DNA from: a virus | IMG/VR virus record: IMGVR_UViG_3300030106_005394 | Location: 1 to 64,000 of that record | DNA: 64,000 nucleotides | Reading direction: 5' to 3' (one strand) | Notes under the pieces: generated by a model | Told to the model about the DNA's origin: nothing | Database searches by the model: none | The model's input: the letters and a program-made list of their open reading frames with translations, nothing else | Translations under genes and position numbers: made by a program | In this document: positions 39,096-59,704 of the stretch, one piece after another | Numbering within the stretch: position 1 is the stretch's first letter | How the letters are laid out: every line of letters starts with the position of its first letter

Positions 39096-39883
39096 AACCA
39101 ATAATATTCCCATTCAATATCTTAGCAAATCCTTGGAATGCCATTGGAGAACTCCTTAAGGCTATACCAATCTGTTTTTTTCTTGGTAAATTATTTGGCG
39201 TAAAGAAGCCACCTTCGCCGTACCAGCAAGCTCTTCAAAGCATGAAGGCTAAGCGTACTGCCGACCAATGGGCATACGACGACTGGATGAAGAGGAACCC
39301 TTGGTATAGCAACTGGAGGAATTACGCATCAGATGCAGCCAGCTCTCTTGGTGATTACGGGGATAGGTTTGCTCAAGCTCAGGCCATTAATGATATGTAC
39401 CAAAGGGATGTAGATAGCCTTTACGATCAAAACGTAAGGCCACTTTTGGGATCAGGGATAGGCTCATACGAGTCAGACCAGCAGGGATTATTTGGTGACA
39501 GAGCAAGAGCTGCAACGGCTGGCGCAAGGGCATTTGGTGAAAGTAACCAAAAGATATTTTCCGATGGCTTAGCTCAGATGGCCAAAAAGTTTGGAACAGA
39601 GCAGGGCGGGTTTGGCTCTGGTTTTGCTTCTTCGTTTGGAGAAGCTGCACAACAGGGAGCGCAATCTGCGGCCGACATGTTTGCATCCGCACAGCAGGGC
39701 ATTGCAGCAGATAAGACCGATACATATGATAAGGTTTTCTCTGCACAATCCAAGGCTCCAGCTAGAGTAGATGAATTTAGAAAAACCGCACTTGATAGCT
39801 TGGTTGCTCCTACTGAGTCTGCGCTTGCAGGATGGGATAGCATAACCAGCAGAGAGCGACAAAACGCACCTCAAATGGCATAA
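39092..39883 (+). CDS. Probable internal virion protein (263 aa)
   Basis: A hydrophobic N-terminal segment (PIIFPFNILANPWNAIGELL, AIPICFFLGKLFG) is followed by helical Ala/Gln/Gly/Asp-rich sequence (AAQQGAQSAADMFASAQQGI). Position directly ahead of another helical protein and the giant protein matches the internal ejection proteins of podoviruses. No enzymatic motif is visible. Confidence 0.7.
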   Translation: MKPIIFPFNILANPWNAIGELLKAIPICFFLGKLFGVKKPPSPYQQALQSMKAKRTADQWAYDDWMKRNPWYSNWRNYASDAASSLGDYGDRFAQAQAINDMYQRDVDSLYDQNVRPLLGSGIGSYESDQQGLFGDRARAATAGARAFGESNQKIFSDGLAQMAKKFGTEQGGFGSGFASSFGEAAQQGAQSAADMFASAQQGIAADKTDTYDKVFSAQSKAPARVDEFRKTALDSLVAPTESALAGWDSITSRERQNAPQMA

Positions 39884-39885: not shown

Positions 39886-41382
39886 ATGGCAACCCTACTA
39901 GAGCAGATTTCCAATAGGGCAGCTTCTGCGCCGCAGCAAAAAATACAGACCATCGACCCCAACAGGTTGATGCAAAATGTAATGAGCATGGAGCAGGACT
40001 ACCGCATGGCACAACTCAACAGCCAATACGAGAGTGACCGCATGCGTGCCAAGGCTCACATGGATCAACTCATGACCCTACAAAGGGATAAGAAAAACTT
40101 CAAAAGGGAAAGAAAGCTAGCACGTGAATCCGACAGAAATAAGGCCATAAGTGGTTCAATTGGGTTGGCCGAGCAAGGCTATGGATCAGCCCCCTTGGGC
40201 ATGTCCCCAGAGCAGTCTACTCTATACTCACAAGCTTCGTTAAAAGGAGCAGAGGCAAAGAGCCAGAGAGAGGGTCAGGGAATGTTTGCCGCAAATCTAT
40301 ATAAGGAGATGGAGGCCTACAATCCAGCCTTATACCGAGAGCAGGTCACAGATAGTATTTACAGCGAAATGGCCACCCCAGAAAAGGTGGACGAGTGGCT
40401 GACATCCAAAGAGGGCAGAGCATATCAGAGGACTCCAGAGTATGCTAACCTGAGGATGCAAGGAGGCGCAGACGGAGGAGAGGTCCCAATGGGAGTGCCA
40501 CTTCACCCAAGCTCTCCAGCCTTTAAGATGCTTCAGCGCAGATATATAGCGAGCGACCCAATGATTCAAGCCCAAGCGGATCAAGCAATACTTAGTATTG
40601 CAGGGGCTAGGGAAGCGAAGCACATGTCCCAGACCAATCAATTTAATACCCTTACAAATGCTGGGGTAAATTGGTATCCATATTATAATGCTCAACCTCA
40701 AGCTGGTCAGGATAACCCACTCTTGCCTCAAGGTAAAAATGAGGACAGCGAATCTAAAACCGAAGGCTCAGGAGGAGGCTCTGAGGAAGAGGAAGAAATG
40801 AACCCGATACTGGGAGGAGCACTTAGGGCTGCTGGTACTGGAGGATTAGCTTATGGTGCTGGAAGAATGACCACAACTCCATATAGGGCCGCTACATCAA
40901 CCTTATACGGAAGACAGCTTAGCACGGAATTAAAGAGAGCCACCAATAATTTAGCCAGAACACCATCATTGCAATGGAATACTCCACGATCAGCTGCTGG
41001 GCCAAACCCAGCCTTGGCGAAAGCACAAAGCGAGATTGACTCTGTAATGAAGTCCCAGAGAAGCCTACTCAAGGCAAATGGGGTTCAGGACGTTGCCCAG
41101 TTAAGCAACCAAGAGGTAACCGAACAACTCAAGCAGATGGTTGAGGACGGCAAGATAAAGAAGATACCTAAAGCTGATAAGGCACTTGCTAAGAAGCTTG
41201 GGAAAGGGGTATTGAGTTCCGTATGGAAAAAAGCTTTAGCCGCCGTAGGTGGCGCCACAGCAACTGGTGCATCTGGCGCGAACCCTTGGACAACAGCAGC
41301 AGGATTTATAGCAGGACTAGGCATGGCCGCATGGACAGTCCATGACGTTTACGGGATAGCAAAAGACTTAATGAGTGAATAA
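39886..41382 (+). CDS. Probable internal virion protein (498 aa)
   Basis: The first 200 residues are charged and helical (RAKAHMDQLMTLQRDKKNFK). A Glu/Gly-rich linker lies at about residue 290. The C-terminus contains a hydrophobic stretch (AAVGGATATGASGANPWTTA, AAGFIAGLGMAAWTVHD) that could enter a membrane. Position and composition fit an ejection protein acting with the giant protein, whose ATG overlaps this stop (TAATG). Confidence 0.72.
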   Translation: MATLLEQISNRAASAPQQKIQTIDPNRLMQNVMSMEQDYRMAQLNSQYESDRMRAKAHMDQLMTLQRDKKNFKRERKLARESDRNKAISGSIGLAEQGYGSAPLGMSPEQSTLYSQASLKGAEAKSQREGQGMFAANLYKEMEAYNPALYREQVTDSIYSEMATPEKVDEWLTSKEGRAYQRTPEYANLRMQGGADGGEVPMGVPLHPSSPAFKMLQRRYIASDPMIQAQADQAILSIAGAREAKHMSQTNQFNTLTNAGVNWYPYYNAQPQAGQDNPLLPQGKNEDSESKTEGSGGGSEEEEEMNPILGGALRAAGTGGLAYGAGRMTTTPYRAATSTLYGRQLSTELKRATNNLARTPSLQWNTPRSAAGPNPALAKAQSEIDSVMKSQRSLLKANGVQDVAQLSNQEVTEQLKQMVEDGKIKKIPKADKALAKKLGKGVLSSVWKKALAAVGGATATGASGANPWTTAAGFIAGLGMAAWTVHDVYGIAKDLMSE

Positions 41383-44300
41383 TGTCAGATACATATGGAC
41401 AAACCAATCCCTACACGCAGAGGTACAGGGTACAGCTCAAAGCGCAAGGGGTGGATACATCCCAGCTATCTGATGACACACTTACGTTTAGGTTAGGCAA
41501 GCGCCTAGAGTCTGAGGGCAAATCGCTCTCTAAAGTCGGCGGTGATGCTTTCCAGAAGCAATATCTCGACATAAAGAATCGACCAGCTCCTGACATGCAG
41601 GGGCCATTAGCTCTGCCTAAAGAGCTATATCGTGCTGGCAGGATGTCTACGATAGGTATGGCTGGTAGTGGCTTAAGTGCATTAGGTCTAGTAGCAGATC
41701 AGATACCTGTTGTTGGTGACGATTTGAATGCTTGGATGCAGGAGAAAGCTAATGCCCTCAGGGCCGAATCAAGTAGATATACTCCTACAATTACAAGACC
41801 TACCGATATTAGGTGGAACAAGCCTGACGAGGCTATGCGTGGTGCAGCGTCTATTGCAGGACAGGCATTTCCTTCATTGGTGCAAGGTCTGGTTGCCGCA
41901 AGAACTGGAGCTGTCGGCTCAAAGGCACTAGCAAAGACACTAAGTAAGAGAATACCAGAGGGAAAGAAGGTCACTAAGAGAGTAAAGGGAACCTACGTTC
42001 AAAGGGACGCAAGAGAAGACTTTATTGAGAAGATGGAGATGGGCGGCATGTATGCGGCTACAGCTCTAAATAGTATTGGGATGAATGCGGGAGAGATTTA
42101 CAGCTCCCTATACGACAGCACTTTACTACCTGAGAGCGACCCAGAGTATGTTGATCCAGTAGATGCACGTAATGCGTCTATGGTCGGAGGAGTTATTTCT
42201 GGCTCTGCGGACTTCGTATTGCCTTCGATGATAATGAGCAAGTTCCTGAGGAATACAGGTCCAAAGGGTAAGCATTATTGGTCTAGATTTGTACAGTCAC
42301 TACCTAGGAACATAACACTTGAGGGTGGAACTGAAGGCTTCCAAGAGCTCGTCAATATGATGAGCGAGAAGTACGCCAAGGGTGAGCCTATGGACTGGAA
42401 GCACATGACCAGCTCGGAGCGAATGAGGCTTGTAGATGCTGGTATTCTAGGTGCAGCAGGCGGTGCACAGGCAACACTTATAGAGGCTTTAGCCCAGCCA
42501 GAGGAAAGGCCCCTTAGCTCCGTTATGGCGAAGGAGCTTGAGGCTAGAGTGAAGCAGGGGAAAATAGATCAGCAACGCAGACTTGAACTCGCAGACGCAA
42601 GGGAGACTTCTCGTATAGGCAGAATCTTTAAGAAAGGGGAAGCCATACTTGACACAAGCACTGGCAAGATAGGCACATATAATCGGAGACTATCGGAAGA
42701 CTTTATAGAGATAGAAGCAGACGGGCAAAGCCAGACAGTACCTATATATAGGGCGGTAAAGGCAGTACCCGAAAATCAGCAATCACAATTTGAGACAGGT
42801 GATTATGTAACCTTCTCTGATATAGACGTCCCTGAGCAGGGCGGAATCATAACTAGCATCAGTGGCAATAGGGCCAGCATAGACGGAATAGACTTTGATG
42901 TAGAGCTAAGTAAGCTAAACAAGGTTGCCAGTAAGAGAGAGAACGAGCAAGATCGTGCGCTCCAGAATCTATCTAAACGCACAAGGAGCGGAAATATTGC
43001 GGCAGCAACAGTAAATAAGATACTTAACTCTGGGCTTACAATCGACCAGCTAAAGGGAACGACCGCAGAGGGAAAGGATTTTGAGGTCGTTGAGCAAGGC
43101 GGTAAGTATAAGTACAATCTATCATCCAAGAAAGCCAAGCCAGTAGATGTCAAAGTTGATCCGCCAACAGCCGAGGTTCAGGTACCCCAGAGCGATATAA
43201 ACGCCTATGTAACATACGCTACGGATTTCATTAACAAACTAAAGGAGAAGCCGAATGCCGATCTTACTGGAGATTACATATATAACATAACCCGAAAATC
43301 CTTCATGAATAAGTACATGAAGGATAAGGGTGTTGATGCTCAAGTTGCCAATAATATCTGGCAGCAGTCGAACAGTAACGGGATCGCATGGAACCTTAGG
43401 GAGCGTGGAATACTTAAGGGGATCAGGGTCAGTGGAGAGACTGCTGGAGAGCGATTAATTGCAGACACCAAGGAGAAGCTTGGTGACATAAGGAAGGAGT
43501 ACAACCTAAAGAAGGGTGTTATTGCGTACAATGGCAACCTTGGTGTTACTGGGAGGCTCAATGAATCTAACGGGAGAGTTGAGGTACATTACATTTCCGA
43601 TGCAATAATACAGACTAGACAGGTAGACGTTGGTGATATTGAGAAAATTAAATCAACAGGGGATAAGGCATCAATCAAGAGGCTAGGTTTTGCCCTGCAG
43701 CAGCAAGGCATTGAATCCTACAGGGAGCACATGGATGAAATCCTCAGGCTTCAAGGCAGGACTGATAAGGATATAGAGTCTAAAAAAGAAGACGTTACTC
43801 GCAGTATTGAAGAGGAAGGGAATAGGCAGGCTTGGTTGAGTTATGTTTCATCGCTTGAGTCAAAGATAAGTGAGGATGAAACCAAGCAGAGGAACGGGAA
43901 GGGATTTACGGACCCAGCAGGAAATCCTAATGATTTTGGAAGGCATTATTTTGCCAAACAAAACATATCTGATCTTGAAGATTTATATAACGGAACGCTA
44001 CTCAATCTTGGTATATATGGAGATGGGTCCAATAAGGAGTACATAGATGCCTTGGCCTACTACAATATCCCAGCAAGATTTAATGCAAGCGACATAAAGA
44101 AAGTCGCAGATGTAAAGCCATACTACAATATGGCGAGAAGAAGGTTCAAGTACCACCTTAGCAAAACGCAGAAGGAGTGGGAGAGTTTCTTGATTGACCA
44201 ATACAAGGCTGACAAGAGCGACAAGGAGAGGCGGGCAAGGGAGAGTGAAGCCAAGAATGAGAAAGAGAATGAAAGGCGAAAGAAACTTAGTCAGGCCACA

Positions 44301-47300
44301 AAGAATAACACACCCCTGCCTCCTGACTTTGAATACTCAAATGAAATAGTAGGTCGCATTGAGCGTGAGCATTTTTCGGGAGTGAGAGAAGGTCAGGAGG
44401 ATGCTTTGGCCATCATTGATTCAATAAGATCGTTTTTATATAATGATGGTCGCTTTAGTTTCAGTGAAGAGCAACCTGCTCTCACGGGAGACAAAATGAG
44501 ACTTTATCAGGCATTCGATGCCCACATAAGGAAAAATCGCGGAGTCTGGACTCCTCTCGTAGAGGGGCATTGGTACAAAGAGCCTCACTGGGAGAAGTTT
44601 ATAAATTACGCAAGGCAAGAGCCATCCATGAGGGTAAAGGGGCTAGTGTGGGAGGATGGAGATCAAGCATTTCCAAGAAAGCAGAATGCTTCATTAAGGG
44701 CTGAGATTAATCGATGGGGTAGTTTTTATGCATCTTGGGAAGGAACTTACAGGGATGCGGTAAGCACCGCCTTAGGGGAAACTCTTCCAAAGAAGTTAAA
44801 CGTAGAGCAAGCCTTGCTTCATATGGATGAGGATTTCAGTAATTATATTGGAGAAAATACAGACTCTGCTTTAATTCAAGATATCTTAACTGGTGGTGAG
44901 GTAGAGGGAGTATTTACAGGCTTATTCGATAAGCTCATATCTGTTTCATCTGACGCAAAAACGGATTGGGACACAATCGCTAATTTAAGCGGCGGACAGC
45001 AGTACCCAAAGCTTAGGTTTCTTAAAAGGCCAACGAAATACGGCAGCCATAAGGTTGCAAGCATTAACGAAGATGAATTTGCCGAATTGCTGGCCGCAAC
45101 CCAGTTCGATGGCGCAAACACCATGGTGAATGCTTGGGGTAACGCAATAGACATAACGGTAACAAAACAGTACAAGCAGAATACCTCCTTTAAGAATTAT
45201 GTAGTTACAGATAAGGCTTGGGGCAGTGAGGACAGATACTGGCTTGAGGTTCGCAGAGATGGGGGATACTATTATGTTCTTCTTGACTCTGGCAGTAATG
45301 ATCTGCGCAACTCTAAGCGAGGTATAGATTTTACTGAAGAGCAACATAGTACATCCGTACAGCCCGAGACAGATACCATCGAGGAGAGCTTCGATGAGTT
45401 TAAGAGTTACATAGGGACCCTAATAGAAAGTAGTATAGAAGGTCTGGATGATTATGATATCCTCAATCTTGCGGCAGAGGACATAATCAAAAATCACAAG
45501 GATAAGATTCCTAGTATATTAAAGAGAGCTAAGGCCCCTAAGGTATATGATGATTCTGACGGATATGAGGTACTTCCTTACTTTGTAAAACTCCTTGAGC
45601 AAGCCGAGCAGCAGGGCAATCTTCTGGAGTTAGCTAAGGAGCAGGCCAAGAATGTGACCGAGGAACAGCGACAGGACGCATTATTTAGCGAGTTCTATAA
45701 AGAAGCTGGGGATAGGATATCCGAACTAGAAGACGAGCAGGCTGGTGATATCCCGCCCGATATTGGGCTGGCTATTATGGGTGAGGAAAGGCGGGGCATA
45801 CGGGAGCTTTCTAAGGAGTGGGCTGAGTGGTTTGGGCGTTCTGCCTACAGGTATTTACAGATGTCCGTACTTCGGGCCGCTAGGTCAGGAATAAGCCTTA
45901 CTCGAGTATTTGAGGAGTGGTATACGTCCTTGATTAAGTACATATCGACCTTGACCAATACAAACGGGCCTGTGCCTACAGATACCAAGGCAAGGCTCAT
46001 GAAGGTCACAAACTCCGAGCTGTTCTCCGAACTACTAGATGAATTATCCAAGGATAAGGATTTCCTTAGTGAATTAACCCCGCAGCAGCAGCGCAACCTG
46101 AAGGACATAATAAAGTACGGAGATAGCTTTGGATACATGACCAAGGATTCTGTAGTCGATTACTTTGATGTCATAGAGGATCATATGCTTACTCGGATTA
46201 GGGTTGAAGCACTTATATCTGATGGCGATATTAATAATGATCTTATTTCTCAACTACAGGATCAGATTGGCCCCGTAAGTCTTGCTGAAAAAATCAGGCA
46301 ATTACAGGTGGCTGAGGGAACGGGCACAGAGGAGATAGCTTTGCATACAGCCCTAGTGGGAGCAGAGAATATTTACAGCAAGTACAATGAGGCAATAAGC
46401 AAATACGACTCAGTGGAAGATTGGACTGGTACGGAAGACTACAGGAAGCTAAGAGCCGAGCTTCAGGATTCCCTTTACGATAAATATAAGTCAGGTAAAG
46501 GTGTAAATCCTATTGCTGAGCTAAAGGACATTAAGATCCCATTTGGTCAGGCCGATATGTTTGGTGCAAATGAGTTTGATCCTATTAATGCATTCCAGTA
46601 TGAAGACATTGATTGGTTCAATCGACTAGACAATATGGATACCCCAGAGTTTGACTGGGCCTCAATCTTGGGTGCTACATCCTATAACAGGTATCGCATT
46701 GAGAGGGGAGACACGCTTAAGGGTATCGTTAATATGATAGCTGAACAGAGCGGGGGAGATAGGGATAAGATTCGTGATGCGATAATAGAGAGTACCAATG
46801 ATGACTTAAATTGGATACCAGACCCATTAAGGTCACTTAATGATGCAGAGCGAATGACCTATAATGCCCTCAAGGCGCATAGGACTTTTCTTGAGAGCAA
46901 AGTAAGAGATCTTGGCTCCAGTCTCGAACTAGATGAGGCACTAAAGAAGGTCAACAAGCAGATGGATGACCTGACCATAAATGCGGAGAAGCATAACCCC
47001 CAAACTAGGGTAGAGGATTTCGACGGAAAAGCTTGGCACGAGCAGGACATTATCGGCAGTGGTGATAATATAGGTAGATTTATAATAATTCCATCAAGAG
47101 GGGGTTTCGGACAGGCTCTTCTTGATGACATTAAGGCCGCTGAAGACGCAAGGCGTATCGCCATTGAATTTAGTGGCAACGAACAAAAGGCCTTTGAGGC
47201 TCTGATAGCGGAAGAAAAGGCCAAGGAAGCAAAGGCGAATCTTCCGTCCCCAGAGGTACAGAAGTCTGTGGCCATAACAGTAAGGTCTCTTTCTGACGAA

Positions 47301-50300
47301 AACGGACAGCTCAGTATTAGCGATGAGGATAAGTATGTAAACGCAGAGGCTACCGCTCAGAAGATTGACTCTGTGTATGCTCAGAGCCAAATGCAGGCTG
47401 CCATGCAGAAGTCAACTGGTGCGGGCAAGCGGGCCAAGGGTCCATATAAGAAGTTTTTTGGATTCTACTCAAAGAGTACAGCAAGTGGACTTGGTAGCTA
47501 CTTTATGGTTGGTACTTATCAAGGAAAAAACAAGAGAGTAAGTATTGGTTCAGATAATTTACCTATTGTAAAGAAGAGGCCTGATGGGGAGCCAGTTATT
47601 AACCTGACTGGAAAAACATTCAAGGAAGTTCGAATTCAGAATAAGTCTACGCAACAAAGGAGCGCAGGAACGTATGTGATCTATAGGGACAACAAGGGTA
47701 ACGCTCACTTTTATAATAGTAATCTTTTCGAGTCATATGCACCAATAATGATAAGGCCTGATGCCTTTGGACTTGATCGACGTGAGGGCATGACACTAGG
47801 CCAATTCCTTGTGGAGCATGGAGATAAGTTCAGCCTTGATGGTGAGACAATAACATTTAGGAATCCTCCGATGCTGGCCGATAATCAGCCTAGGGTATCT
47901 TTTAAGTTTTCCAGCTATGAAGACTTCTTAAACGCAAAGAATCTTGCGTATGGTAACGTAGCTAGCGTTGCAGCAAGCACTGGAGAGAAAACACTTACTG
48001 GCGACAGGAAGACAATAAAGGTACTTCGATCAGAGAGGAACAGGCTGGCGGAAAAGATAGAATCATTTGATGTAGGCGATCCTGATAAGCTAGTAAATCA
48101 ATATAAGTTTAGCCACAAGGCGAAGTCTGATGAGCTACATAAAATAGAGGCCAGAAGTAACCCATTGATGACAGGCCCAGAGCAAGACCTAGACAGCTTT
48201 AATGAAAACCAAAGGAAGAACTACACCGATGATACTGTGGCTACAGTGGGCCAGCATGCCAGTAAGATTATAAAGATAGGAGAAAGGTCTTTCCAAGTTA
48301 CCGATACTGGGGTAATTGATGCCACCACAGGACTCGGCGTTGATTCCAGCAAGAACTTCATCGTAGAGACCCTCAGGCCCTCAAGGGATATAATGATTGA
48401 GCTAGTGGAGCTATCTGCCGAACTGAGCTATGCGGGTGACCCAACTAATTTATACGAGCTTAAGCCTGACGAGATACAGAATAAGTTCGACAGGATTGTG
48501 GAGCTGGAACAGAAGTGGAAGGACCTGTACAGTAAGAACGAGAACCTTCGCTACATAATAGAGCAGATTGGTGTACCAAAGGACCTAGGCTACTCATTTG
48601 GCTCTAGGCTTTATTCGGTAAGCCAGAAGATGACTGGAGAATCTCAGATGGAGAACACTCGGGCGCTAGAGCCTGAGGTGGCAAGATACATAATTGAATC
48701 ACTATTCGGCAGGACTCGGCTTCTTGTTCCAAGTAAGTATGAGCTTTCCATTGAGATGACCAGAGATATCCACAAGAGGCTCATTAAGGATAATCCCCTG
48801 TTGAGCTTTCTAGATAGGTACATCGTTGACTTAAGCCTCAAGCAATCAATAAGAAATGTAAAGAGGGGCGATGGTAAGGCTGATGAATTTATAATGGACT
48901 CGGGCGTTACTCCCGTCGAGAACGCCATCATGAATGACCAGCGAGTTGTTGAGGTTCGGGAGGGCACTACACTTGCGGATATAGCAAAGGCCGAGGGCAT
49001 TGAGACTTGGGACCTAGTTAGACTCAATGGACTAATAGAGTCTGAGGCACTTACGCTAAGGGGTGAGTTCTCCCAACAGCAAAAGAAGATTGATGTTGAA
49101 AATGCTGAGGCTAAGTTTGCCGAGAAGCTCAGCAGGATAAAGGGAACATACCCAGATTATGAAGTTATAATCCTTCCAAATATAGAAGACTCTACTGTTG
49201 AGGTATCCAGAACTTCCGATCGGGAAGACACAGGATACTCTGACGAGGATGTGGATATTTCAGATCCCGATATATCTGGCGATAGGCTTGGCTATAGTAA
49301 TACCGAACGGATGCGAGAGTATCTTAAGGAAGAAGATACTGGTCGTGAGTCCGAGGTAATAGAGGTAGAGAGAAGGCAGATCAAGGATAGGAGTGTTGAG
49401 CTTAGCAGGTCTTTACAGGGGGAGTATATTGACCTTGGCGAGGAACTTAGTGAGCTGGAGAGGCAAGGATTTACTACAGGCTCAATAGCTGGGAAAAACC
49501 AAACACGCTCTAATAATATCAGAGCAAGGATGCGAGAAATCCTTGTCACAATCGACAGGGCTAGAAGAAAATCATACTGGTACACTATAAGGCAAAATAT
49601 ATACGGAAGTCGGATTGCAGGATCTAGTATAGAATTGGTAACTCCCGAGTCTCAAGCCCTGCAAGAAGCTAGGGCAGAGCAGGGTATCGTTCAGTCGCAA
49701 ATAAAGCTTGAGAGGATTGAGCAGGGAATATCTCAACAGAGTAGTGACCTTCAGGAATTGCGAGAAAATATAAAGAAGTTGGGTGAGGAGACTATAACTG
49801 TTAATACCGCTGACTTTGACAGATACGCCAATGAACCTGCGGACGCAACATTTGTAATCAAAAGGGATAAGCATGTAACATTTACCCTAGAGCAAGGAAA
49901 GGCTCTTTCAGAGTTAAAGGGGAAGTTATTTAACGACCTATCAAAGCTAGGCCATTACTATAAGCAGATTGAGATATTTGTTGAAGCCGAGATAGAGGCT
50001 AGCGGATTAAGTGCCGCAAGAGCCAAAAGAAGTGCCACCATAAGCAAGCTAAGGAATCTCATGGTCGAGAAAGAGGCGGCCATGATGGAGTCAAAGGCAT
50101 GGACGCAGGTAGTTAATATAACTAAGGACCCCGAGGACGCGGCCAATAGAGTATCTGATCTAGGCTCCACCAAGCAGGCTTTACTGGATTATGTAGATGA
50201 AGAGATAAGCACCATAGAGGAGCAGTACACAAGCCCAATAGACGGAACTTCAATAAAGGTGGATATGGGGTCCCTGTCTCCATCTGCGGCCAGCGAGATA

Positions 50301-53300
50301 ATAACTTCCTTAGGGAATGTAGTTTTGGCTGGCTCTAGTGAAGGGCAACTTTCCGAGATTAAGAACAATGCGGAGGTTATCGGGGAGGTTTCAATTAAGA
50401 TTGATGACATGCCAGAAAGCCTGCAGGTTGAGCTAAAGTCGGCACTTGAGGCATACGGAACAAATGATCCACGCATTGCTGAAAAGCTAATGTCAATATC
50501 GAAGAACCCTGTTGTTCTTGAGTATGCCTTGGGGCTATTTCGGGGAAACAGGTGGCAGCGCAGTGATGACTCCTCAACCTATTCTGTCAGCTCAAGAAAC
50601 CCTTGGACATCGGCAGCGGGCACAACTCAGGTTTTTGACTCCAGAAAGAATTTCAATACCCAGTCCCTTCGGAACTTTATACATAACGGAATGGGACCCA
50701 TGGGAGGCAGGAAGGGATACAGCCAGCAGTTTCTTCAATATGTATTCAGGCAGTTCTTTACTGACATCAACTACATCTCAAGCGAGGGGGACACAACTGT
50801 GTTCTCCCAAGCTACGGCGGATACTATAATAAAAGAAGCTCCACTTAGGGGGTCAACAAAAGAGCAGCTGCTTGAGATTAAGAGGCGCAACGAACAGCAG
50901 TGGGCGCAGGTCGTGGGAAGACTTATGGCTGGTGGCCTTGGGCCAACATACCTATGGGACCCATCGTCTATACCCTCCTATGTACCTGACAGGCCAAGCA
51001 TAAATAGAGAAGACATAGACAGGGGTGAATTTGGATTCCTTGGGCTTGATCCCAATAGGCTTAATGCGGCGATAAGTAATAATGAAGACATAAGCAAGCT
51101 AAAGCCAGATGCTGAACTTATATATGAGCAATACCAAAAGGCGTTAGAAAGCCGAAAGATAACCTACCGAGAAATTGACGAGGCAGACCTAGCTGGGCTA
51201 ACCCCAACCCAGAGGGAAGAGTTTATTAATGCCGAAAGGGTTAGTGCCATTGAGGCCATACTGGATATAGGCAAGAACGAGCCATCAAATAGAACCATAG
51301 GCAGCTTGGCTATGGTCTTGGATAATGCCGTACTTGCATCAAAGACTCCTGAGATGCTTGAGGCATACATACAGGACGTATTGGATAAGGGTGGAGATAT
51401 CCACCAGCATTGGTCTCGTTTGATACTTCAAGACCCAGACGGGGTTGTTAGCGATCAGGAGGGATATAGGGTTGGTGGCTCTCAGGGGACTAGGGAATAC
51501 TCAACACCAAGAGAGTTTGTTGATGCTCTATACCAGAAGGCTGCCGATATAGTTTCGGACATTACTGAAGCTGTTGGCGGTGTTGGCGTAAATAGAAATT
51601 TGGTAGCGGAAGCCCTGCGGGGACAAACCGACCACTCTCCCACCAATGAATACAAATCAGCAACAGAGCCAGACGAAAAGATAGACCCAGACGCTCACAT
51701 ATTCCATTCAGCGGAACCCCTAGAAGGCCAACTTGACTTTGACGGCCAACCAATGACAGGTCCTGTCCTTACTTCATCAGATAAGGCAGAGAGACATAAC
51801 GCATCAGTATACGCAAAGACTCCATCCAGAATACCAGTAGCTCCTCCAATACAGGAAACCATGGTAGAGGACAACAATAGGGCGGTAGACATCCTATTGG
51901 ATAACAACCTCAACTCCGAGTACGCGGGTAAGCTATTGCACAGAGTGGCCGCGAGGGGAAATGTGGACGAGTTCACAAAGGAGATAGCAGATAGGCTAAG
52001 GAATGCCCCTGCCTTACGTAGTCTACCTATCAACTTTGAACAGTGGGCCACCTTTAAGCATAAGGCGTACACGAAGTCGGGTGCCTTCGGGAAGGCATAC
52101 TACAACGCCACCACGAAGTCGGTACACATCTCAAAGGATGCCTTCCGAATCAGGGGCGCGGATGTAGATGCCCAGCTTGACTACATAATAGTTCACGAGA
52201 TATTCCACAATGTACTCCGAGATGCCCTAACGCAGAAGGCCCAGATAAGAATAAACGATATCACCGAGTACAGGGTTGCTTACCTAGAGGATGAGGCAAA
52301 TGAGCTTTTCAATGAGATAAAGAAGATAGATATACCAGCGGAGTTTGCGCATCAGGTATCCAGTATGGAGGAGTTCCTTAATGCGTCATGGAGCGACAAG
52401 AGGTTTTCCGAATGGCTTAGCAGCCAATCCCCAAAAAGCGCCAGCGGTAGCAAGTTCAAGAACTTCTTAGACTGGTTGCTTGACATATTCTCAAGGGTCA
52501 TAAGCAAAATAACCCAGCGGCAAGACAAGAGGGAGGACAGGAAGTCCCTGAGCAGAATCCACGAAAGGGTTAAGGCCTTGACCGAGGCCCTAGTGCCCTT
52601 CCAGCCCCCAGAAGGCCTTGCGGGCAAGGTGTTCCGTAGCAGGGGGAGGCATGACCAGATAGCAAGATCCATTTCTTTTTCTGGGTATGAATTAGATGGC
52701 AATAATATCCGCGCGCTTCGGAGCAGCCTAATCTCTGATTACGTAAGCGATTTCAAGGCCGCCGAGGTCGAGAACCCATTTGAGGACTATGAAAAAGAAC
52801 TCGATAGATTAAAAAAAGAAGTCATCGAGGAGGAGGGGGGCTTGAACGATGATTACCTGTTGACCCTAAAAGAAAGAGCTGCCAAGGCGGTCGGGCAGTC
52901 CCTCCGGAGGGGACAACCTGTGCGGCACTTATACGAAACCCACTCTTTTGGGAGATACAAAACAGTTGGGGTGCTGTTTGACGAGATATATAAGTCCGCT
53001 AAATCTAGACTGCCTGCCGACTCTGCAAATATCAAGCTACTGAAGGCGCTAGACAAGGCCCTTAATTGGGACGTGTCAAATGCCCAGCCGATAAGGGAGG
53101 CCAAGCTTGTCCCCATTGAAGATCGCATGGGCTCCTCCAGAAGAGGGCGGGTTGGTCTAAAAAGTGACGCTAGCGTTGGCACCTTTATTCATGAGTTAAT
53201 TCATCAATTTACTCAGCCAGAAATCAGAGCCCTTGAGCGGGCGCATCTCAATGAGCACGCCAACTACATTGAGTTCGCAAGGGCTATAGCAGAATCCGAT

Positions 53301-56300
53301 AGTGGAAGCTCCGCATCAAAGGTGGCCCAGATGTACATTAAAGTGATAGATTCTCTTCCTAGAGATATGCGTCATACGCTCGTTGCTGGCGAAACGTACA
53401 ACCTTGGGAAACCTATGAGGAGATTGAACTGGAGGGGGCTGATTGGAAAAGATGTGTCTTCGGGTATTGCATATGGGTTAAGTAGCCTGCATGAGTTTTA
53501 CACCCAAAGCCTAACTGACAGTGATTTCCAGAGTCTTTTAGCTGATATTTTTGTAGACAGAAGCTCCACTGTCCTGACCGAGCTTCAGGATGCATTCGCC
53601 AATCGGTTTAATACTATTGCCGATACAATGCTGGATCTCGTACTCGCCTCCGAGGCTTACGCTCCGTCATACGCGCTACCAGAGGAAGGAAAAGCAATGG
53701 ACCTCAGCGATCGGCGAGACATCACCGAGCAATATCTAGACTCTCTGCCTGTTGAAAGAGACTCGGACGATGATGTTTTACTATTTAGCTCAGAACCCAA
53801 CCCAGATGTAACAATCACCCCAGATGAAAATGTTGCCCACCAGATGCTGCAAGAGCTTGGTGGAGCAAATACTGTACTCAAGGAGATGGAGGTTGTTCTG
53901 TCCGAGCTTGCTGAAGAAGGTTATGTACCAAGCACGAAGGAGGGAGAGGAGCCGCTTGCTGCATTCGTAAGGGAGTACGGCATAGTTGAGGGCAAGCCAA
54001 TAACCTACCACATTAATAAGCTATCAAAGTACGCCGAGGCTATAGGTGAAGACCCGAAAAATGTTGGTCTAGGCTGGGGAGGCAACGATGTAAACTTTAA
54101 GATGCAGTCAGCCCAGCTGGCAATTAAGTACCTTGAGATAATAAGAAAGAAAGCAAGAGATCAGGCAGAGTCTTCAGCTACATCCATAGATAACCTAGAG
54201 ACCGAGATCGAGGAGCTAAAGAAGCTACTTGACCCCAAGCAAGCATTTGAAACCTCAAGGAATGGACGCACACTAAAAGGCAAGTTTACCACCACAATCA
54301 ATGGTAAAATCAAGAAACTCAAGGCAACAAATACAGACCAATCCCTTGCCTTGGCAGAAGAGCTAGAGTCTATAAAGGGCGCAACAAGCACCCAAAGGGT
54401 TGTGGACACGTTGATACATGTAGTAGACAGGGATGTAGACATAAAAGGACCTGTCGAAGATATATCCAGCGCAATATACGACCTAACTAATGATCGTAAT
54501 TACTCAGATGTAATGGCTGAAGTAATACAATCCTCTCCAACCTCATTTGCATTCATGCAGATATCAAGAGGAACGCTACCTAATCAGCAGGAGCTAGTGG
54601 ATGAAATATCAAATTACGCCAACTACTCAAGGATCAAGCTTGAGATGGAGGTACCCAAGCTAACAGGCGATGACTTCGAAACTAAGATCAAGCGACAATT
54701 CGCTGAAAGGTGGAGAGACCTTAGGCTCAAGGAGGCGGATATTGAGTACGAGCGTTCAGTTAATTCAGTTGGTAGGGAGATTAACAACAGACTATTTCCA
54801 TTAAGACAAAAGCTCGGAGTTATACTTGGAGACATGGAGCCATTCTCGTTAAGCGATGGCGTGACCATGATCCACATGAAGCAGACTGGCGAAGGCAATT
54901 GGACGTCTGGTACTTATGTAATCAGACTAGGCAATGACATGTCCCCTGCTGACTTGGATGAATATAATCAAGTAGTAGGAGATAACCTTAAGTTCCTCAG
55001 AGACAAGAGTAACGACAGGTACAAGGATGAGCCATTCTATGATATAGTAAAGACCCAGACCAATGAAGCCGCCAAGGCTCCAACTATGAAGGAGTGGCAT
55101 GAATCAAGGCGTGCATCATACTTCTCGGTAGTACAGAGCCTTAGTCAGCAGTTTGCAAACATGGGACTGCTAGGCAAGACCATGAGCCAAATGCTCAATC
55201 AAGTGGTTACGCTACATAAGGCTCACGACTCTTATTTTAAAAATCAATCCTTCAAATGGAACCGCAAGCTTAAAGACGCTGCCAAAGCACTAGGATACAA
55301 TGACTGGCAAAAGCTTATTGAGGGGCCATACACAGACGCCCTCAACTGGCTGGACAACCACCCAGAGCTTATAGGCAAGGGTGATGTTGCGTATGAGCGC
55401 ATGTGGGAATACCTAAAAACATCTGGTACTTTTGCAAACCCAGAGAAGGCTACCCTGCTGGGCAAGAAAGCATTCATAGCCTTCATGAAGGAAACGAACA
55501 CATCCAGAGAGATGCTTCGTGACTTATCCCTATCCATAGGTAATAAGGTTAAGGCTGTACATAAGGGAGATAACATTATGGTTCAGTCTCCAGTTACAGG
55601 AGAAATGGTTCCATTGTACAGAGACCCAATTGACGTAGGTCCAGTTACTGTAGCTAGGAGGATAAACAAATCTCTTATTGCCACAGTAGAGGTTCTAAGT
55701 AGAGCAGGGTGGGGCGATATTAAGCCACCAGAAGAAGGCGAGGATATCGGATTGTACCTATCTAGGTACTTCACCCCTCAGGTTGTTGAGCGATTTGTTG
55801 CTCCCTATGCAACAATGAACACAATGACTGAGGCATTCAAGCTCAAGGGTCAGATGATTCCTCAGTCTGTAATCAGATCAGCTTGGATGAAGACAAGCGG
55901 AGAGGGTACGGATAGATTCATAGAGTGGGCTCAAAACTTATCTACCACACTTGGTATGGAGCTTGAGGATACAACCAAGCAGTTGTTTAGCCAACTCCAA
56001 GGATTCCATAGCGAGATGGTTAGGGTGAAGGATTCTGCCGACAATAAGGAGACCTTCCGAATAACAGACTCAGTAGCTCACAAGATCATGGATGGCCGAG
56101 ACATCAGGACTGTCATGCCCAAGGAGTTCTGGCAGTACGACACATTTGATGAGATGGGCTTCAATATTCAGCTTGCCAATGTTATAACCAATGCGGTTAT
56201 GGGCCGAGGTGGAGAGCGCAGGCGAGGAGTACATAACGGGCTGATGGATCAGCTTAGGATTAAAAAGAAAGCTTTTGCTGAGCTTATAAGTCAGGCTGGA

Positions 56301-58481
56301 GGCAGGATGAATATGGTGTCCGAGAAGCCTCAAATGAGGATTAGCGGAAAGGTTCGTAGACGTGCAGAAGCTATACTCAAGGGTCAGGGTATAACAAACC
56401 CGAAGCAAAAGTTTGAGGAACTAAGGTCTGCCGCAGTCCAAGAGGGTCAAGCGAGAAAAGCTTTCGAGATGATGGAGCTTTACTTTGGCGGCAAAGATGG
56501 CCCTTACCAAGATGTTAGGTTCCTTACAGAAATGCTTGGCTTCCATGCGTTCATGCTATTGTCGCAACCAAAGTCCTCAATGCTTAACTTCCTGTCCATA
56601 CCTGATATATTTGTTTTCTCTAGGGGACTCAATAAGATGGGACTAAAGGGAACCGCAAAGGCATTAGGCAATGTGCTGGATCAAGGCTTTGGTGGAATGC
56701 TTGAGTCAATGGGTATACAGTATAAAAGGGCTCATGACTACGCAAAGGATACTGGAGAGATGTTCTTTCACTTTAAGGAACACGAAGCTCCATTTAGGGA
56801 TCAAATTAACCTAGTTGGGCTAAGAGGAACAGGTAAGGCATCCTTTACGGATAGGAGTATATCTGGGGGGCTAGGGCCGATTCCGGGTGTCAAAGGATTA
56901 TCTGCTATAGGCAGGGCACAGGCCGCTGGAGTGCGAGACCCAAGTAGACAGCCTCTATCGCTTAGGACGATGATTCCGGGCATAGGAGATCCATTTGGCT
57001 ATACAGCTAGAGTTTCCAACCACAGTATTGCTTTCGGGCTATCGTCGGTATACCACGATCTAGTCCTTGAGGCGTCTAAGTACATAAAAGCCAACAACCT
57101 AAAGCATGGTGATGAGATAACTGCCGAGGATCTAGGTTACGGAAAGGGCGTTGGAGGGATAGGATTCGGTAAGGCGACCCTAGATAACCTTGTTTTTGGA
57201 GGAGTAGAGGGCTGGAATAATTACAACGTAAAGCTAATTGACTCTGGCATTGGAAGTATAGCAGACCTTGCTCACGACTATTTGGCTAGAAAGAAGAACG
57301 GAGATAATCGGGTATTATCTAAGGATGCTGTTTTAGGTATAGGAACAATTGGCCTGAATGAGGTATCTCTTGATGGGTTCCTTGCTCGAGCACCTTGGCT
57401 ATACACGTCCCTGCCGGGCCGTGTAGCCGCTCCATTATTGGGTTGGTCACTTGGCAGGATCAATCAAGTTAATGAGTTTATGCGCACGAAGGACGGGAAG
57501 CTTTCGGGAATGCTACTCATTAAGTACATGGCCCTCATGTCTGGAAGCATGATCCCAGCAGGCCTATTCCTGTCCTTGACGCAGGATATCTGGGATGAAG
57601 ACATAACAGGTAAGCCATCTGCCTTAGGTTCCATAGCGCCTACTCAGGCCATACCATTCGTAGGTATGTTCATAAACAAAGACGATCCTAAGTATAGCAT
57701 CATGGCCGCAATCGAAAGGGCTGGAAGAACCTCCTCCCCTTATGGGTTGGTGTATGATGCTATCGCTCAAACCATATCATTTGCAGATCCACACTCTCCA
57801 GCTAGAGGATTCTCCCTAGATAGTAGAATACTTATATTCTCTCAATTGAGTGGATTTATGAACATACTCAGAAATGTTGCGTCTACAGGCCTAGAAGGAT
57901 TAACGGATTATGGGACATTCACTAGACCGCTACTTTACAACATGGGAGGCAATGCCTACTTCCATTACCATCAAGCGTTTACAAATCTCATGGGCTCTGA
58001 CTCTCAGGAGCGCAGGATGGCAGACATAATAGGTATTAAGAATACCTTACGTAAAGGGGCTAAGGCTACTGGTCTTCCGCTACGCACAGCCATGAAGTTT
58101 GGTGCTGCACCCACTCGACTCTCCATGTACATAAAGCAGATGGAGAGAGCGGCTATTGCAAATGACACAGACGCATTTAGGAATTCATATATTAGTGCGG
58201 TGGCCGTTGCCCGAGCCGATGGCAAACCTAACCCAGAGAAGTATGTTATTTCATCATTTAAGGACAGGGACTTACGCAGGTCTGTTACGGCTAGAAAAAT
58301 ACAAGATGAGGACTGGTCGAGACTACTCAATGAAATAGACCCTGAGATGAGAAGGAAGATATTGCAGTTTGAGGCTTCCAAGCAGAGGTATATTGAGCTA
58401 CTAAGTCCACAAGTAGAAGCCTACAAGCAACCTAGAAGAAAGAGCTTAGCGCAACTCAGGAGAGAAGCATTAGGCTTATAA
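41382..58481 (+). CDS. Giant large polyvalent protein (5,699 aa) with two metallopeptidase motifs
   Basis: This single frame takes 27% of the window. The N-terminal 370 residues hold hydrophobic segments and the phrase ITLEGGTEGFQELVNMMSEK, which I recall from phage polyvalent proteins. An SH3-like region is at about 415-515. LysM-like segments lie at about 1770 (RYRIERGDTLKGI) and 2523-2565 (VEVREGTTLADIAKA). Two zinc-peptidase motifs follow: HEIFH 3605-3609, and HELIH 3937-3941 with SLHEF (E4038) as a possible third ligand. The last 1,100 residues have hydrophobic helices (LLIKYMALMSGSMIPAGLFL). It follows internal virion proteins, so it is probably packaged and ejected. It could equally be cut into several proteins. 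The frame is uninterrupted. Confidence 0.9.
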   Translation: MSDTYGQTNPYTQRYRVQLKAQGVDTSQLSDDTLTFRLGKRLESEGKSLSKVGGDAFQKQYLDIKNRPAPDMQGPLALPKELYRAGRMSTIGMAGSGLSALGLVADQIPVVGDDLNAWMQEKANALRAESSRYTPTITRPTDIRWNKPDEAMRGAASIAGQAFPSLVQGLVAARTGAVGSKALAKTLSKRIPEGKKVTKRVKGTYVQRDAREDFIEKMEMGGMYAATALNSIGMNAGEIYSSLYDSTLLPESDPEYVDPVDARNASMVGGVISGSADFVLPSMIMSKFLRNTGPKGKHYWSRFVQSLPRNITLEGGTEGFQELVNMMSEKYAKGEPMDWKHMTSSERMRLVDAGILGAAGGAQATLIEALAQPEERPLSSVMAKELEARVKQGKIDQQRRLELADARETSRIGRIFKKGEAILDTSTGKIGTYNRRLSEDFIEIEADGQSQTVPIYRAVKAVPENQQSQFETGDYVTFSDIDVPEQGGIITSISGNRASIDGIDFDVELSKLNKVASKRENEQDRALQNLSKRTRSGNIAAATVNKILNSGLTIDQLKGTTAEGKDFEVVEQGGKYKYNLSSKKAKPVDVKVDPPTAEVQVPQSDINAYVTYATDFINKLKEKPNADLTGDYIYNITRKSFMNKYMKDKGVDAQVANNIWQQSNSNGIAWNLRERGILKGIRVSGETAGERLIADTKEKLGDIRKEYNLKKGVIAYNGNLGVTGRLNESNGRVEVHYISDAIIQTRQVDVGDIEKIKSTGDKASIKRLGFALQQQGIESYREHMDEILRLQGRTDKDIESKKEDVTRSIEEEGNRQAWLSYVSSLESKISEDETKQRNGKGFTDPAGNPNDFGRHYFAKQNISDLEDLYNGTLLNLGIYGDGSNKEYIDALAYYNIPARFNASDIKKVADVKPYYNMARRRFKYHLSKTQKEWESFLIDQYKADKSDKERRARESEAKNEKENERRKKLSQATKNNTPLPPDFEYSNEIVGRIEREHFSGVREGQEDALAIIDSIRSFLYNDGRFSFSEEQPALTGDKMRLYQAFDAHIRKNRGVWTPLVEGHWYKEPHWEKFINYARQEPSMRVKGLVWEDGDQAFPRKQNASLRAEINRWGSFYASWEGTYRDAVSTALGETLPKKLNVEQALLHMDEDFSNYIGENTDSALIQDILTGGEVEGVFTGLFDKLISVSSDAKTDWDTIANLSGGQQYPKLRFLKRPTKYGSHKVASINEDEFAELLAATQFDGANTMVNAWGNAIDITVTKQYKQNTSFKNYVVTDKAWGSEDRYWLEVRRDGGYYYVLLDSGSNDLRNSKRGIDFTEEQHSTSVQPETDTIEESFDEFKSYIGTLIESSIEGLDDYDILNLAAEDIIKNHKDKIPSILKRAKAPKVYDDSDGYEVLPYFVKLLEQAEQQGNLLELAKEQAKNVTEEQRQDALFSEFYKEAGDRISELEDEQAGDIPPDIGLAIMGEERRGIRELSKEWAEWFGRSAYRYLQMSVLRAARSGISLTRVFEEWYTSLIKYISTLTNTNGPVPTDTKARLMKVTNSELFSELLDELSKDKDFLSELTPQQQRNLKDIIKYGDSFGYMTKDSVVDYFDVIEDHMLTRIRVEALISDGDINNDLISQLQDQIGPVSLAEKIRQLQVAEGTGTEEIALHTALVGAENIYSKYNEAISKYDSVEDWTGTEDYRKLRAELQDSLYDKYKSGKGVNPIAELKDIKIPFGQADMFGANEFDPINAFQYEDIDWFNRLDNMDTPEFDWASILGATSYNRYRIERGDTLKGIVNMIAEQSGGDRDKIRDAIIESTNDDLNWIPDPLRSLNDAERMTYNALKAHRTFLESKVRDLGSSLELDEALKKVNKQMDDLTINAEKHNPQTRVEDFDGKAWHEQDIIGSGDNIGRFIIIPSRGGFGQALLDDIKAAEDARRIAIEFSGNEQKAFEALIAEEKAKEAKANLPSPEVQKSVAITVRSLSDENGQLSISDEDKYVNAEATAQKIDSVYAQSQMQAAMQKSTGAGKRAKGPYKKFFGFYSKSTASGLGSYFMVGTYQGKNKRVSIGSDNLPIVKKRPDGEPVINLTGKTFKEVRIQNKSTQQRSAGTYVIYRDNKGNAHFYNSNLFESYAPIMIRPDAFGLDRREGMTLGQFLVEHGDKFSLDGETITFRNPPMLADNQPRVSFKFSSYEDFLNAKNLAYGNVASVAASTGEKTLTGDRKTIKVLRSERNRLAEKIESFDVGDPDKLVNQYKFSHKAKSDELHKIEARSNPLMTGPEQDLDSFNENQRKNYTDDTVATVGQHASKIIKIGERSFQVTDTGVIDATTGLGVDSSKNFIVETLRPSRDIMIELVELSAELSYAGDPTNLYELKPDEIQNKFDRIVELEQKWKDLYSKNENLRYIIEQIGVPKDLGYSFGSRLYSVSQKMTGESQMENTRALEPEVARYIIESLFGRTRLLVPSKYELSIEMTRDIHKRLIKDNPLLSFLDRYIVDLSLKQSIRNVKRGDGKADEFIMDSGVTPVENAIMNDQRVVEVREGTTLADIAKAEGIETWDLVRLNGLIESEALTLRGEFSQQQKKIDVENAEAKFAEKLSRIKGTYPDYEVIILPNIEDSTVEVSRTSDREDTGYSDEDVDISDPDISGDRLGYSNTERMREYLKEEDTGRESEVIEVERRQIKDRSVELSRSLQGEYIDLGEELSELERQGFTTGSIAGKNQTRSNNIRARMREILVTIDRARRKSYWYTIRQNIYGSRIAGSSIELVTPESQALQEARAEQGIVQSQIKLERIEQGISQQSSDLQELRENIKKLGEETITVNTADFDRYANEPADATFVIKRDKHVTFTLEQGKALSELKGKLFNDLSKLGHYYKQIEIFVEAEIEASGLSAARAKRSATISKLRNLMVEKEAAMMESKAWTQVVNITKDPEDAANRVSDLGSTKQALLDYVDEEISTIEEQYTSPIDGTSIKVDMGSLSPSAASEIITSLGNVVLAGSSEGQLSEIKNNAEVIGEVSIKIDDMPESLQVELKSALEAYGTNDPRIAEKLMSISKNPVVLEYALGLFRGNRWQRSDDSSTYSVSSRNPWTSAAGTTQVFDSRKNFNTQSLRNFIHNGMGPMGGRKGYSQQFLQYVFRQFFTDINYISSEGDTTVFSQATADTIIKEAPLRGSTKEQLLEIKRRNEQQWAQVVGRLMAGGLGPTYLWDPSSIPSYVPDRPSINREDIDRGEFGFLGLDPNRLNAAISNNEDISKLKPDAELIYEQYQKALESRKITYREIDEADLAGLTPTQREEFINAERVSAIEAILDIGKNEPSNRTIGSLAMVLDNAVLASKTPEMLEAYIQDVLDKGGDIHQHWSRLILQDPDGVVSDQEGYRVGGSQGTREYSTPREFVDALYQKAADIVSDITEAVGGVGVNRNLVAEALRGQTDHSPTNEYKSATEPDEKIDPDAHIFHSAEPLEGQLDFDGQPMTGPVLTSSDKAERHNASVYAKTPSRIPVAPPIQETMVEDNNRAVDILLDNNLNSEYAGKLLHRVAARGNVDEFTKEIADRLRNAPALRSLPINFEQWATFKHKAYTKSGAFGKAYYNATTKSVHISKDAFRIRGADVDAQLDYIIVHEIFHNVLRDALTQKAQIRINDITEYRVAYLEDEANELFNEIKKIDIPAEFAHQVSSMEEFLNASWSDKRFSEWLSSQSPKSASGSKFKNFLDWLLDIFSRVISKITQRQDKREDRKSLSRIHERVKALTEALVPFQPPEGLAGKVFRSRGRHDQIARSISFSGYELDGNNIRALRSSLISDYVSDFKAAEVENPFEDYEKELDRLKKEVIEEEGGLNDDYLLTLKERAAKAVGQSLRRGQPVRHLYETHSFGRYKTVGVLFDEIYKSAKSRLPADSANIKLLKALDKALNWDVSNAQPIREAKLVPIEDRMGSSRRGRVGLKSDASVGTFIHELIHQFTQPEIRALERAHLNEHANYIEFARAIAESDSGSSASKVAQMYIKVIDSLPRDMRHTLVAGETYNLGKPMRRLNWRGLIGKDVSSGIAYGLSSLHEFYTQSLTDSDFQSLLADIFVDRSSTVLTELQDAFANRFNTIADTMLDLVLASEAYAPSYALPEEGKAMDLSDRRDITEQYLDSLPVERDSDDDVLLFSSEPNPDVTITPDENVAHQMLQELGGANTVLKEMEVVLSELAEEGYVPSTKEGEEPLAAFVREYGIVEGKPITYHINKLSKYAEAIGEDPKNVGLGWGGNDVNFKMQSAQLAIKYLEIIRKKARDQAESSATSIDNLETEIEELKKLLDPKQAFETSRNGRTLKGKFTTTINGKIKKLKATNTDQSLALAEELESIKGATSTQRVVDTLIHVVDRDVDIKGPVEDISSAIYDLTNDRNYSDVMAEVIQSSPTSFAFMQISRGTLPNQQELVDEISNYANYSRIKLEMEVPKLTGDDFETKIKRQFAERWRDLRLKEADIEYERSVNSVGREINNRLFPLRQKLGVILGDMEPFSLSDGVTMIHMKQTGEGNWTSGTYVIRLGNDMSPADLDEYNQVVGDNLKFLRDKSNDRYKDEPFYDIVKTQTNEAAKAPTMKEWHESRRASYFSVVQSLSQQFANMGLLGKTMSQMLNQVVTLHKAHDSYFKNQSFKWNRKLKDAAKALGYNDWQKLIEGPYTDALNWLDNHPELIGKGDVAYERMWEYLKTSGTFANPEKATLLGKKAFIAFMKETNTSREMLRDLSLSIGNKVKAVHKGDNIMVQSPVTGEMVPLYRDPIDVGPVTVARRINKSLIATVEVLSRAGWGDIKPPEEGEDIGLYLSRYFTPQVVERFVAPYATMNTMTEAFKLKGQMIPQSVIRSAWMKTSGEGTDRFIEWAQNLSTTLGMELEDTTKQLFSQLQGFHSEMVRVKDSADNKETFRITDSVAHKIMDGRDIRTVMPKEFWQYDTFDEMGFNIQLANVITNAVMGRGGERRRGVHNGLMDQLRIKKKAFAELISQAGGRMNMVSEKPQMRISGKVRRRAEAILKGQGITNPKQKFEELRSAAVQEGQARKAFEMMELYFGGKDGPYQDVRFLTEMLGFHAFMLLSQPKSSMLNFLSIPDIFVFSRGLNKMGLKGTAKALGNVLDQGFGGMLESMGIQYKRAHDYAKDTGEMFFHFKEHEAPFRDQINLVGLRGTGKASFTDRSISGGLGPIPGVKGLSAIGRAQAAGVRDPSRQPLSLRTMIPGIGDPFGYTARVSNHSIAFGLSSVYHDLVLEASKYIKANNLKHGDEITAEDLGYGKGVGGIGFGKATLDNLVFGGVEGWNNYNVKLIDSGIGSIADLAHDYLARKKNGDNRVLSKDAVLGIGTIGLNEVSLDGFLARAPWLYTSLPGRVAAPLLGWSLGRINQVNEFMRTKDGKLSGMLLIKYMALMSGSMIPAGLFLSLTQDIWDEDITGKPSALGSIAPTQAIPFVGMFINKDDPKYSIMAAIERAGRTSSPYGLVYDAIAQTISFADPHSPARGFSLDSRILIFSQLSGFMNILRNVASTGLEGLTDYGTFTRPLLYNMGGNAYFHYHQAFTNLMGSDSQERRMADIIGIKNTLRKGAKATGLPLRTAMKFGAAPTRLSMYIKQMERAAIANDTDAFRNSYISAVAVARADGKPNPEKYVISSFKDRDLRRSVTARKIQDEDWSRLLNEIDPEMRRKILQFEASKQRYIELLSPQVEAYKQPRRKSLAQLRREALGL

Positions 58482-58484: not shown

Positions 58485-58907
58485 GTGGACTCAAAAAGAT
58501 TCGGCACCACATGCGAGGTTGCCTTCAAGCTTCATGCATTAAAGAGGAACCTAGAGGTCTTTCCTTCCGAGGGAGACTTTAGTGTTGTTGACTGCATTAT
58601 AATGAACCCAGCAGGTAAGTGCTATAGGGTTCAGATAAAAGGGACAAGCACTATCACTAGCGATGGGATAGATAGACCAAAGCCCAAAAATAAGTATCGA
58701 GTAGTCTGTGGTAGAGGTACGGCAAAAGAATCCTTGAAGGCAACTGAGGTTGATGTGCTTGCATGCTACATAGAGCCTAGGGACGTGTGGTATCTTATTC
58801 CCATGACCAAAGCCCACGGCAAGAAGTCATTTGCGTTTTTTGTCAAAGAAGATAGTAAGTCTCAATGGTCTCCATTTAGAGACAACTGGGATATTTTCTT
58901 GAAGTAG
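58485..58907 (+). CDS. PD-(D/E)XK-like nuclease family protein (140 aa)
   Basis: The layout is an N-terminal helix (GTTCEVAFKLHALKRNLEV), then SEGDFSVVDCIIMN, then CYRVQIKGT. This is D-x(n)-QxK, a variant of the PD-(D/E)XK core seen in some restriction-like phage proteins. The Gln for Glu change is tolerated in parts of this superfamily. The GTG start at 58485 is four bases after the giant gene stop. It may process or degrade DNA, or work with the giant protein. Confidence 0.75.
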   Translation: MDSKRFGTTCEVAFKLHALKRNLEVFPSEGDFSVVDCIIMNPAGKCYRVQIKGTSTITSDGIDRPKPKNKYRVVCGRGTAKESLKATEVDVLACYIEPRDVWYLIPMTKAHGKKSFAFFVKEDSKSQWSPFRDNWDIFLK

Positions 58908-59541: not shown

Positions 59542-59704
59542 CGCATTTTACACCGACCTGTATCAGCTGATCTCTAGGTATAGTAATGAGTTTGACTTGC
59601 CACTTGAGACCCTAATTGGTGCAATAGAGATGGTTAAGGCAGACTTAGTGTCGGGTGTAGCTTTCCAAGTGGATTTCGAAATTGATACAGAAGAAGATGA
59701 ATGA
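59519..59704 (+). CDS. Hypothetical acidic small protein (61 aa)
   Basis: A soluble helical protein (TDAFYTDLYQLISRYSNEFD, LETLIGAIEMVKADLVSG) with an acidic C-terminus. It overlaps the spanin-like gene by 23 bases and the next gene by eight. I recall similar small proteins in phage lysis regions, but give no function. Confidence 0.7.
   Translation: MTIPEQTDAFYTDLYQLISRYSNEFDLPLETLIGAIEMVKADLVSGVAFQVDFEIDTEEDE

Follow-up and report, generated by a model that had tools for sequence, protein, structure and literature searches.

We identified a giant open reading frame (ORF) in the window, by which we mean the whole 64,000-nucleotide stretch of viral DNA that was analysed, and its product is very probably the third ejection protein, and the largest, of a hitherto undescribed clade of short-tailed phages, occupying the slot held by gp16 or by the virion RNA polymerase (vRNAP) in known systems. 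The sequence-only reading had proposed an internal virion protein ejected as cargo, and we adopt the ejection reading because three lines of evidence support it: the gene order, the complete absence of cysteine and the homology of a zincin domain to known ejection proteins. Among proven members of the gp16 position, homology was found to phiM1 gp48 over the zincin domain, and none was found for the rest of the chain. The frame takes up 27% of the window, in agreement with the earlier description of a single stop-free frame filling more than a quarter of it, and 23.5% of the whole 72,704-bp virus record. The cassette and the parts of the giant are laid out as follows.

34078-38022 (+), probable tail nozzle, similar to tail tubular protein B, 1,314 aa, 7 Cys (PHROG_460 head closure Hc2, E=3.5e-5, and position)
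39092-39883 (+), candidate ejection protein in the gp14 position, 263 aa, 1 Cys (synteny with T7 and phiM1)
39886-41382 (+), candidate ejection protein in the gp15 position, 498 aa, 0 Cys (synteny)
41382-58481 (+), giant ORF, 5,699 aa, 639 kDa, zero cysteine
41382-43118 (+), conserved N-module, aa 1-425 and on to aa 579, the first part common to at least three relatives
42609-42941 (+), two KOW/SH3-like stretches, aa 410-520 (weak profile match to ribosomal protein L24, E=0.25)
43119-51923 (+), lineage-specific core, aa 580-3514, ~2,935 aa
48951-49034 (+), LysM-like stretch, aa 2524-2551 (Pfam LysM, E=0.15; 12.5 bits, below the cut-off of 20.9)
51849-52541 (+), zincin-like domain 1, aa 3490-3720, with HEIFH at aa 3605 and SSMEEF downstream
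53079-53591 (+), zincin-like domain 2, aa 3900-4070, with HELIH at aa 3937 and YGLSSLHEF at aa 4031
53820-58478 (+), conserved C-module, aa 4147-5699, ~28-31% identical to relatives
58485-58907 (+), 140-aa gene directly 3' of the giant (PHROG_5018, function unknown)

The giant is the third, last and largest gene of an ejection cassette in T7 order: a nozzle-like gene, a small gp14-like gene, a gp15-like gene and then the giant, as in T7 and phiM1. This order bears out the earlier observation that the giant directly follows two candidate internal virion proteins. The gp15-position candidate has a Gly-rich, hydrophobic C-terminus. Neither neighbour has relatives among the clade loci compared, so their identities rest on position and composition. 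Beyond position 58481 lie the 140-aa gene, which is kept beside the giant in several relatives, small basic ORFs (a run of very short Lys/Arg-rich frames at 58934-60560, + strand) and a strand switch.

The second line of evidence is the absence of cysteine. We counted none in the 5,699 residues of the giant and 106 in the 11,891 residues of the 37 other window proteins; 51 would be expected at the rate of the phage's other proteins and 32 at that of its non-ejection virion proteins. Base composition does not explain the gap, since the other two forward frames of the same DNA hold 89 and 237 TGT/TGC triplets. Across the giant family we found a single cysteine in ~46,000 residues, leaving out two in a frame-broken copy (G014), and cysteine is likewise missing from the ORFs immediately 5' of the relatives' giants, in contrast to most replication and head genes. 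Among known ejection proteins, cysteine is absent from T7 gp15/16, P22 gp7/16/20, phiKMV gp35-37, phiM1 gp48-50, N4 gp50-52 and another five vRNAPs; a single one occurs in T7 gp14, and the crAss001 candidates contain 0 to 3. The lack of cysteine in vRNAPs has been reported before, with the suggestion that it may help the protein to pass the tail and the periplasm (PMC2784036, PMC3715699, PMC3915230). Its lack in the giant would be an independent sign of ejection, plausibly selected because such a chain could form no disulfides while crossing the oxidising periplasm.

To relate the giant to other proteins, we searched it against 50,697 phage records (tblastn), finding no match, and against Pfam, PHROGs, NCBIfam and PDB sequences, finding sub-threshold matches at most (LysM, E1_FCCH, bL9 and LiaF_C, none of which we accepted). 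Single-sequence searches of viral contigs with the C-terminus and the core also found nothing. The large terminase (18479-20017, PHROG_2) gave access to relatives: used as bait, it recovered 59 IMG/VR loci at 63-84% identity, and searching whole records of 30 of these loci with the giant's ends yielded the homologues. A C-module profile added two more homologues, plus a locus that lies in a genome bin classed as archaeal. Single-frame copies carrying both modules measure 5,699 aa (window), 5,397 (G021), 4,398 (L120), 4,214 (L135), 4,138 (G017), 3,771 (G006) and 3,751 aa (G005); the giant of G008, read across overlapping contig ends, comes to ~3,960 aa, and those of the remaining relatives are incomplete at contig ends. 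Two relatives are broken into several frames (794+3,092 residues in L094; 1,589+500+1,724 in G014), so fission or sequence error does occur within the family. The split copies lie at 3109-14734 of L094 (+, two frames) and at 3042-14972 of L084 (-, three frames).

Only two modules, window aa 9-425 and aa 4147-5697, are common to at least three relatives, and the length differences among giants fall mostly between them. The N-module is Gly-rich with short hydrophobic stretches and is shared up to aa 579 with the nearest relative, G001, at 36% identity; a profile of the N4 N-terminal domain (NTD) matched the family's N-modules at E=0.027 at best and was not accepted. The core (aa 580-3514) has no relative in the other giants or in phage records, and two scans of 2.9 million viral contigs found none for aa 1500-3479. 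The C-module appears mostly helical in a low-confidence AlphaFold model (pLDDT 53), which gave no meaningful fold match with Foldseek, and no significant profile match was found to N4 C2, phiM1 gp48, T7 gp16 or P22 gp16. Judged from their sequences, the giants form a widespread, previously undescribed family in uncultured phages, built of conserved ends, peptidase-like domains and a large, apparently swappable middle.

Several other features of the clade were recorded. A tyrosine integrase (63241-63999, -, continuing to record position ~64077; PHROG_1, E=1e-44) is present in 8 of 11 relatives tested, and a temperate lifestyle is therefore possible for the clade; replication genes of the Erf-like and O-like types were found as well. 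A basic, cysteine-containing 90-aa protein without a PHROG match (29144-29416, +) shows 88-97% identity across 58-75 residues to its counterparts in distant clade members, against 63-84% for the terminase. Three different giants (L120, L135 and L136; 4,398, 4,214 and at least 3,844 aa) fall in one 1.6-Mb bin assigned to an uncultured archaeon (G031), with three clade terminases and a partial archaeal 16S rRNA. We did not accept this bin as proof of host; a binning effect is more likely than archaeal hosts.

The third line of evidence lies between the core and the C-module, where the peptidase part named in the sequence-only reading proved to be two zincin-like domains. Domain 1 aligns to a profile of the relatives' zincins at E=4.4e-12 (hhalign), and its model shows a helix, strands and the HExxH helix at pLDDT ~70-80; domain 2 aligns to the relatives at E=3.7e-6 (hhalign) and to phiM1-type ejection proteins at E=1.2e-5. 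Every relative whose centre is covered carries HExxH mid-protein and, further on, a conserved motif with a glutamate (mostly YGLSSxDEF); this pair of features characterises the zincin-like metallopeptidases found in polyvalent proteins (PMC5512222). A second HExxH in G017 and L095 fits the zincin profile poorly (E 0.01-0.06), and we therefore claim two zincins for the window protein only.

The best PDB match of the relatives' zincin profile is 8vb2 chain A, phiM1 gp48, annotated 'Tetrameric ejection protein' (E=0.0015), in an alignment that spans HExxH and the YGLSxxxEF motif. In profile-profile comparisons, the zincin matched six phiM1/phiKMV-type gp16-like proteins (E=2.5e-9; reversed control 0.44) and eight N4-like C-terminal domains, the vRNAP C1 (E=6.3e-7; reversed control 0.54), and the phiM1 and N4 families matched each other over the same domain (E=6.4e-10; reversed control 0.58). 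Since the three match pairwise, a single zincin domain is common to three ejection-protein families. The HExxH domain lies at aa 383-473 of 8vb2/phiM1 gp48 (L098) and at aa 423 of phiKMV gp37 (L118). The paper on the N4 structure reports HExxH in C1 (PMC12633501), while the text of the phiM1 structure paper appears to make no mention of the domain: 'metallo' and 'HExxH' are absent, and 'zinc' occurs only for nanoparticles (PMC11440229).

Of the domain searches and AlphaFold modelling proposed at the outset, profiles revealed the zincins, but models were mostly of low confidence and Foldseek matches meaningless (the zincin-region model, pLDDT 45, gave no fold match). Of the mixture of membrane, SH3, LysM and peptidase parts first suspected, the peptidase stands, whereas the LysM-like (E=0.15) and SH3-like (E=0.25) stretches are weak and the membrane part marginal; the giant has only two hydrophobic stretches, both marginal, at aa 267-285 and, near the C-terminus, at aa 5377-5400, the latter a possible transmembrane helix. 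A second enzymatic domain, as 'multi-purpose' cargo would imply, was not recognised in Pfam, PHROGs or NCBIfam.

In a different assignment, the giant would be a polyvalent head protein of the P1 DarA/DarB or DdrB type, an anti-defence bundle cut by its zincins rather than part of a channel. We consider this doubtful. Zincin metallopeptidases are a hub domain of polyvalent proteins, with autoprocessing proposed (PMC5512222), and two zincins beside a lineage-specific core fit such a protein; however, none of the known partners (methylase, helicase, ART, ParB-like domains and others) was significant in the window protein, the relatives' cores likewise gave no significant polyvalent partner domain, and the position in the cassette is gp16-like. 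The two assignments also overlap, as an ejection protein can itself be polyvalent.

The giant might instead be a packaged RNA polymerase, of the N4 vRNAP or crAss-like type, too diverged to recognise. Its size class, cassette position and lack of cysteine are all as in N4 vRNAP, a zincin followed by a helical C-terminus recalls N4 C1-C2 (PMC12633501), and its middle matches no identified domain. The earlier statement that no RNA polymerase motif is visible nevertheless survived a stricter search. A profile of six N4-like RNA polymerase domains found no giant (hmmsearch E 0.2-23) and scored E 0.09-0.6 against six giant middles, compared with 4e-31 for a held-out N4-like polymerase, and the DxDGD motif of crAss-like virion RNA polymerases occurs in none of the giants. 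A polymerase would be expected to be conserved, and the giant's middle varies between relatives. This reading is highly improbable.

It is also highly improbable that the giant is the tape measure of a long-tailed phage. Great length, a place in the late gene cluster and a mostly helical C-module (in the low-confidence model) would suit one, and peptidase or LysM domains are sometimes part of tape measures. Against this, the giant is preceded by tail-like genes and not followed by tail-tip genes, its zincin shares homology with podoviral ejection proteins, a 5,699-aa tape would imply a tail near 0.85 micrometre by our estimate, and the homologues vary in length from 3,751 to 5,699 aa.

The frame itself is sound. 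It starts at an ATG that overlaps the upstream gene's stop by one base (TAATG) and runs without an internal stop over 5,699 codons, an event with a chance of ~10^-151 at the local base composition, while the other five frames over the same DNA hold 160-555 stops each. It contains 58 Trp and 130 Met codons and no internal repeats that our search could find. Fusion of several genes by assembly or sequencing error, to which the split content of G014 (three frames) and L094 (two) might point, is extremely unlikely and refuted at the family level, because in at least six other records a single uninterrupted frame spans the N- and C-modules; codon-position composition is also uniform along the ORF. 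The single frame in related phages likewise largely answers the earlier concern that assembly errors might affect this one.

Returning to the ejection reading, we propose that the giant is packed in the head and ejected into the host before the DNA. A few copies would sit above the portal. Once the gp14- and gp15-like proteins have passed down the narrow tail, these copies would be threaded after them in a state that is unfolded at least in part, and the giant would then help to build a channel across the envelope. The N- and C-modules may form a chassis for packaging, threading and anchoring, and the non-conserved core may be cargo delivered to the host side; the zincins, as putative peptidases, could cleave the chain once it has been delivered, or else attack targets in the host or its envelope. 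That the ends and zincins carry a freely exchanged, lineage-specific core of ~1,000-3,000 residues, which the zincins release and which works inside the host as a set of effectors, is a tentative extension of this scheme. If true, one cysteine-free protein would combine a channel part, a peptidase and an effector library.

Several consequences follow from the ejection reading. The ejection machine would extend to a single 639-kDa chain that leaves the head through a tail channel a few nanometres wide; it is ~60% longer than the N4 polymerase, which already poses the same threading puzzle. The zincin domain would link three families of ejection proteins, and zero cysteine together with cassette position could provide a cheap test for ejected proteins in uncultured phages.

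Several known systems resemble the giant in part. In the phiM1 gp48, phiKMV gp37 and KP34-type group (Autographiviridae), the protein is likewise encoded at the end of a trio of ejection genes that comes after tail tubular protein B, is cysteine-free (one cysteine in one member) and has a zincin-like HExxH, with YGLSxxHEF downstream in phiM1 gp48; these proteins, however, have 1,033-1,337 aa and one zincin, lack a large variable core and show no detectable homology to the giant's N- and C-modules. T7 gp16 shares its position and lack of cysteine but has an N-terminal transglycosylase, and sequence homology was not found. The polyvalent proteins of Iyer et al. 2017 (PMC5512222) are also very large, zincin-bearing and encoded beside virion genes, but the giant gave no second recognisable enzymatic domain in Pfam, PHROGs or NCBIfam. 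The 2,270-aa protein of StenR_269 and its Zobellviridae counterparts (PMC10747016) are similarly large, cysteine-free, unassigned and placed in the late cluster; the StenR_269-type protein is under half the giant's length, and the giant is unmatched anywhere in the phage collection.

The closest parallel is the N4 vRNAP (Schitoviridae gp50), also giant, cysteine-free and in the same cassette position. T7 gp16, the last ejection gene, forms the inner-membrane part, and N4 vRNAP takes the same place; it starts with a membrane-associated domain at its N-terminus, continues with the polymerase and then the zincin C1, and ends in a large helical C2, and the proposal is that it leaves the particle like beads on a string (PMC8954989, PMC12633501). 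N4-like vRNAPs measure 3,398-3,632 aa, against 5,699 for the giant, which has no polymerase domain and no detected homology to C2. By its predicted domain layout the giant nonetheless repeats the N4 order of NTD, cargo, zincin C1 and helical C2 (PMC12633501), its core replacing the polymerase, and the polymerase may therefore be just one of the cargoes that such a layout can carry, not the reason that it exists. The novelty of the giant lies in its size, its pattern of chassis plus core and its zincin link, while its working principle resembles a known kind.
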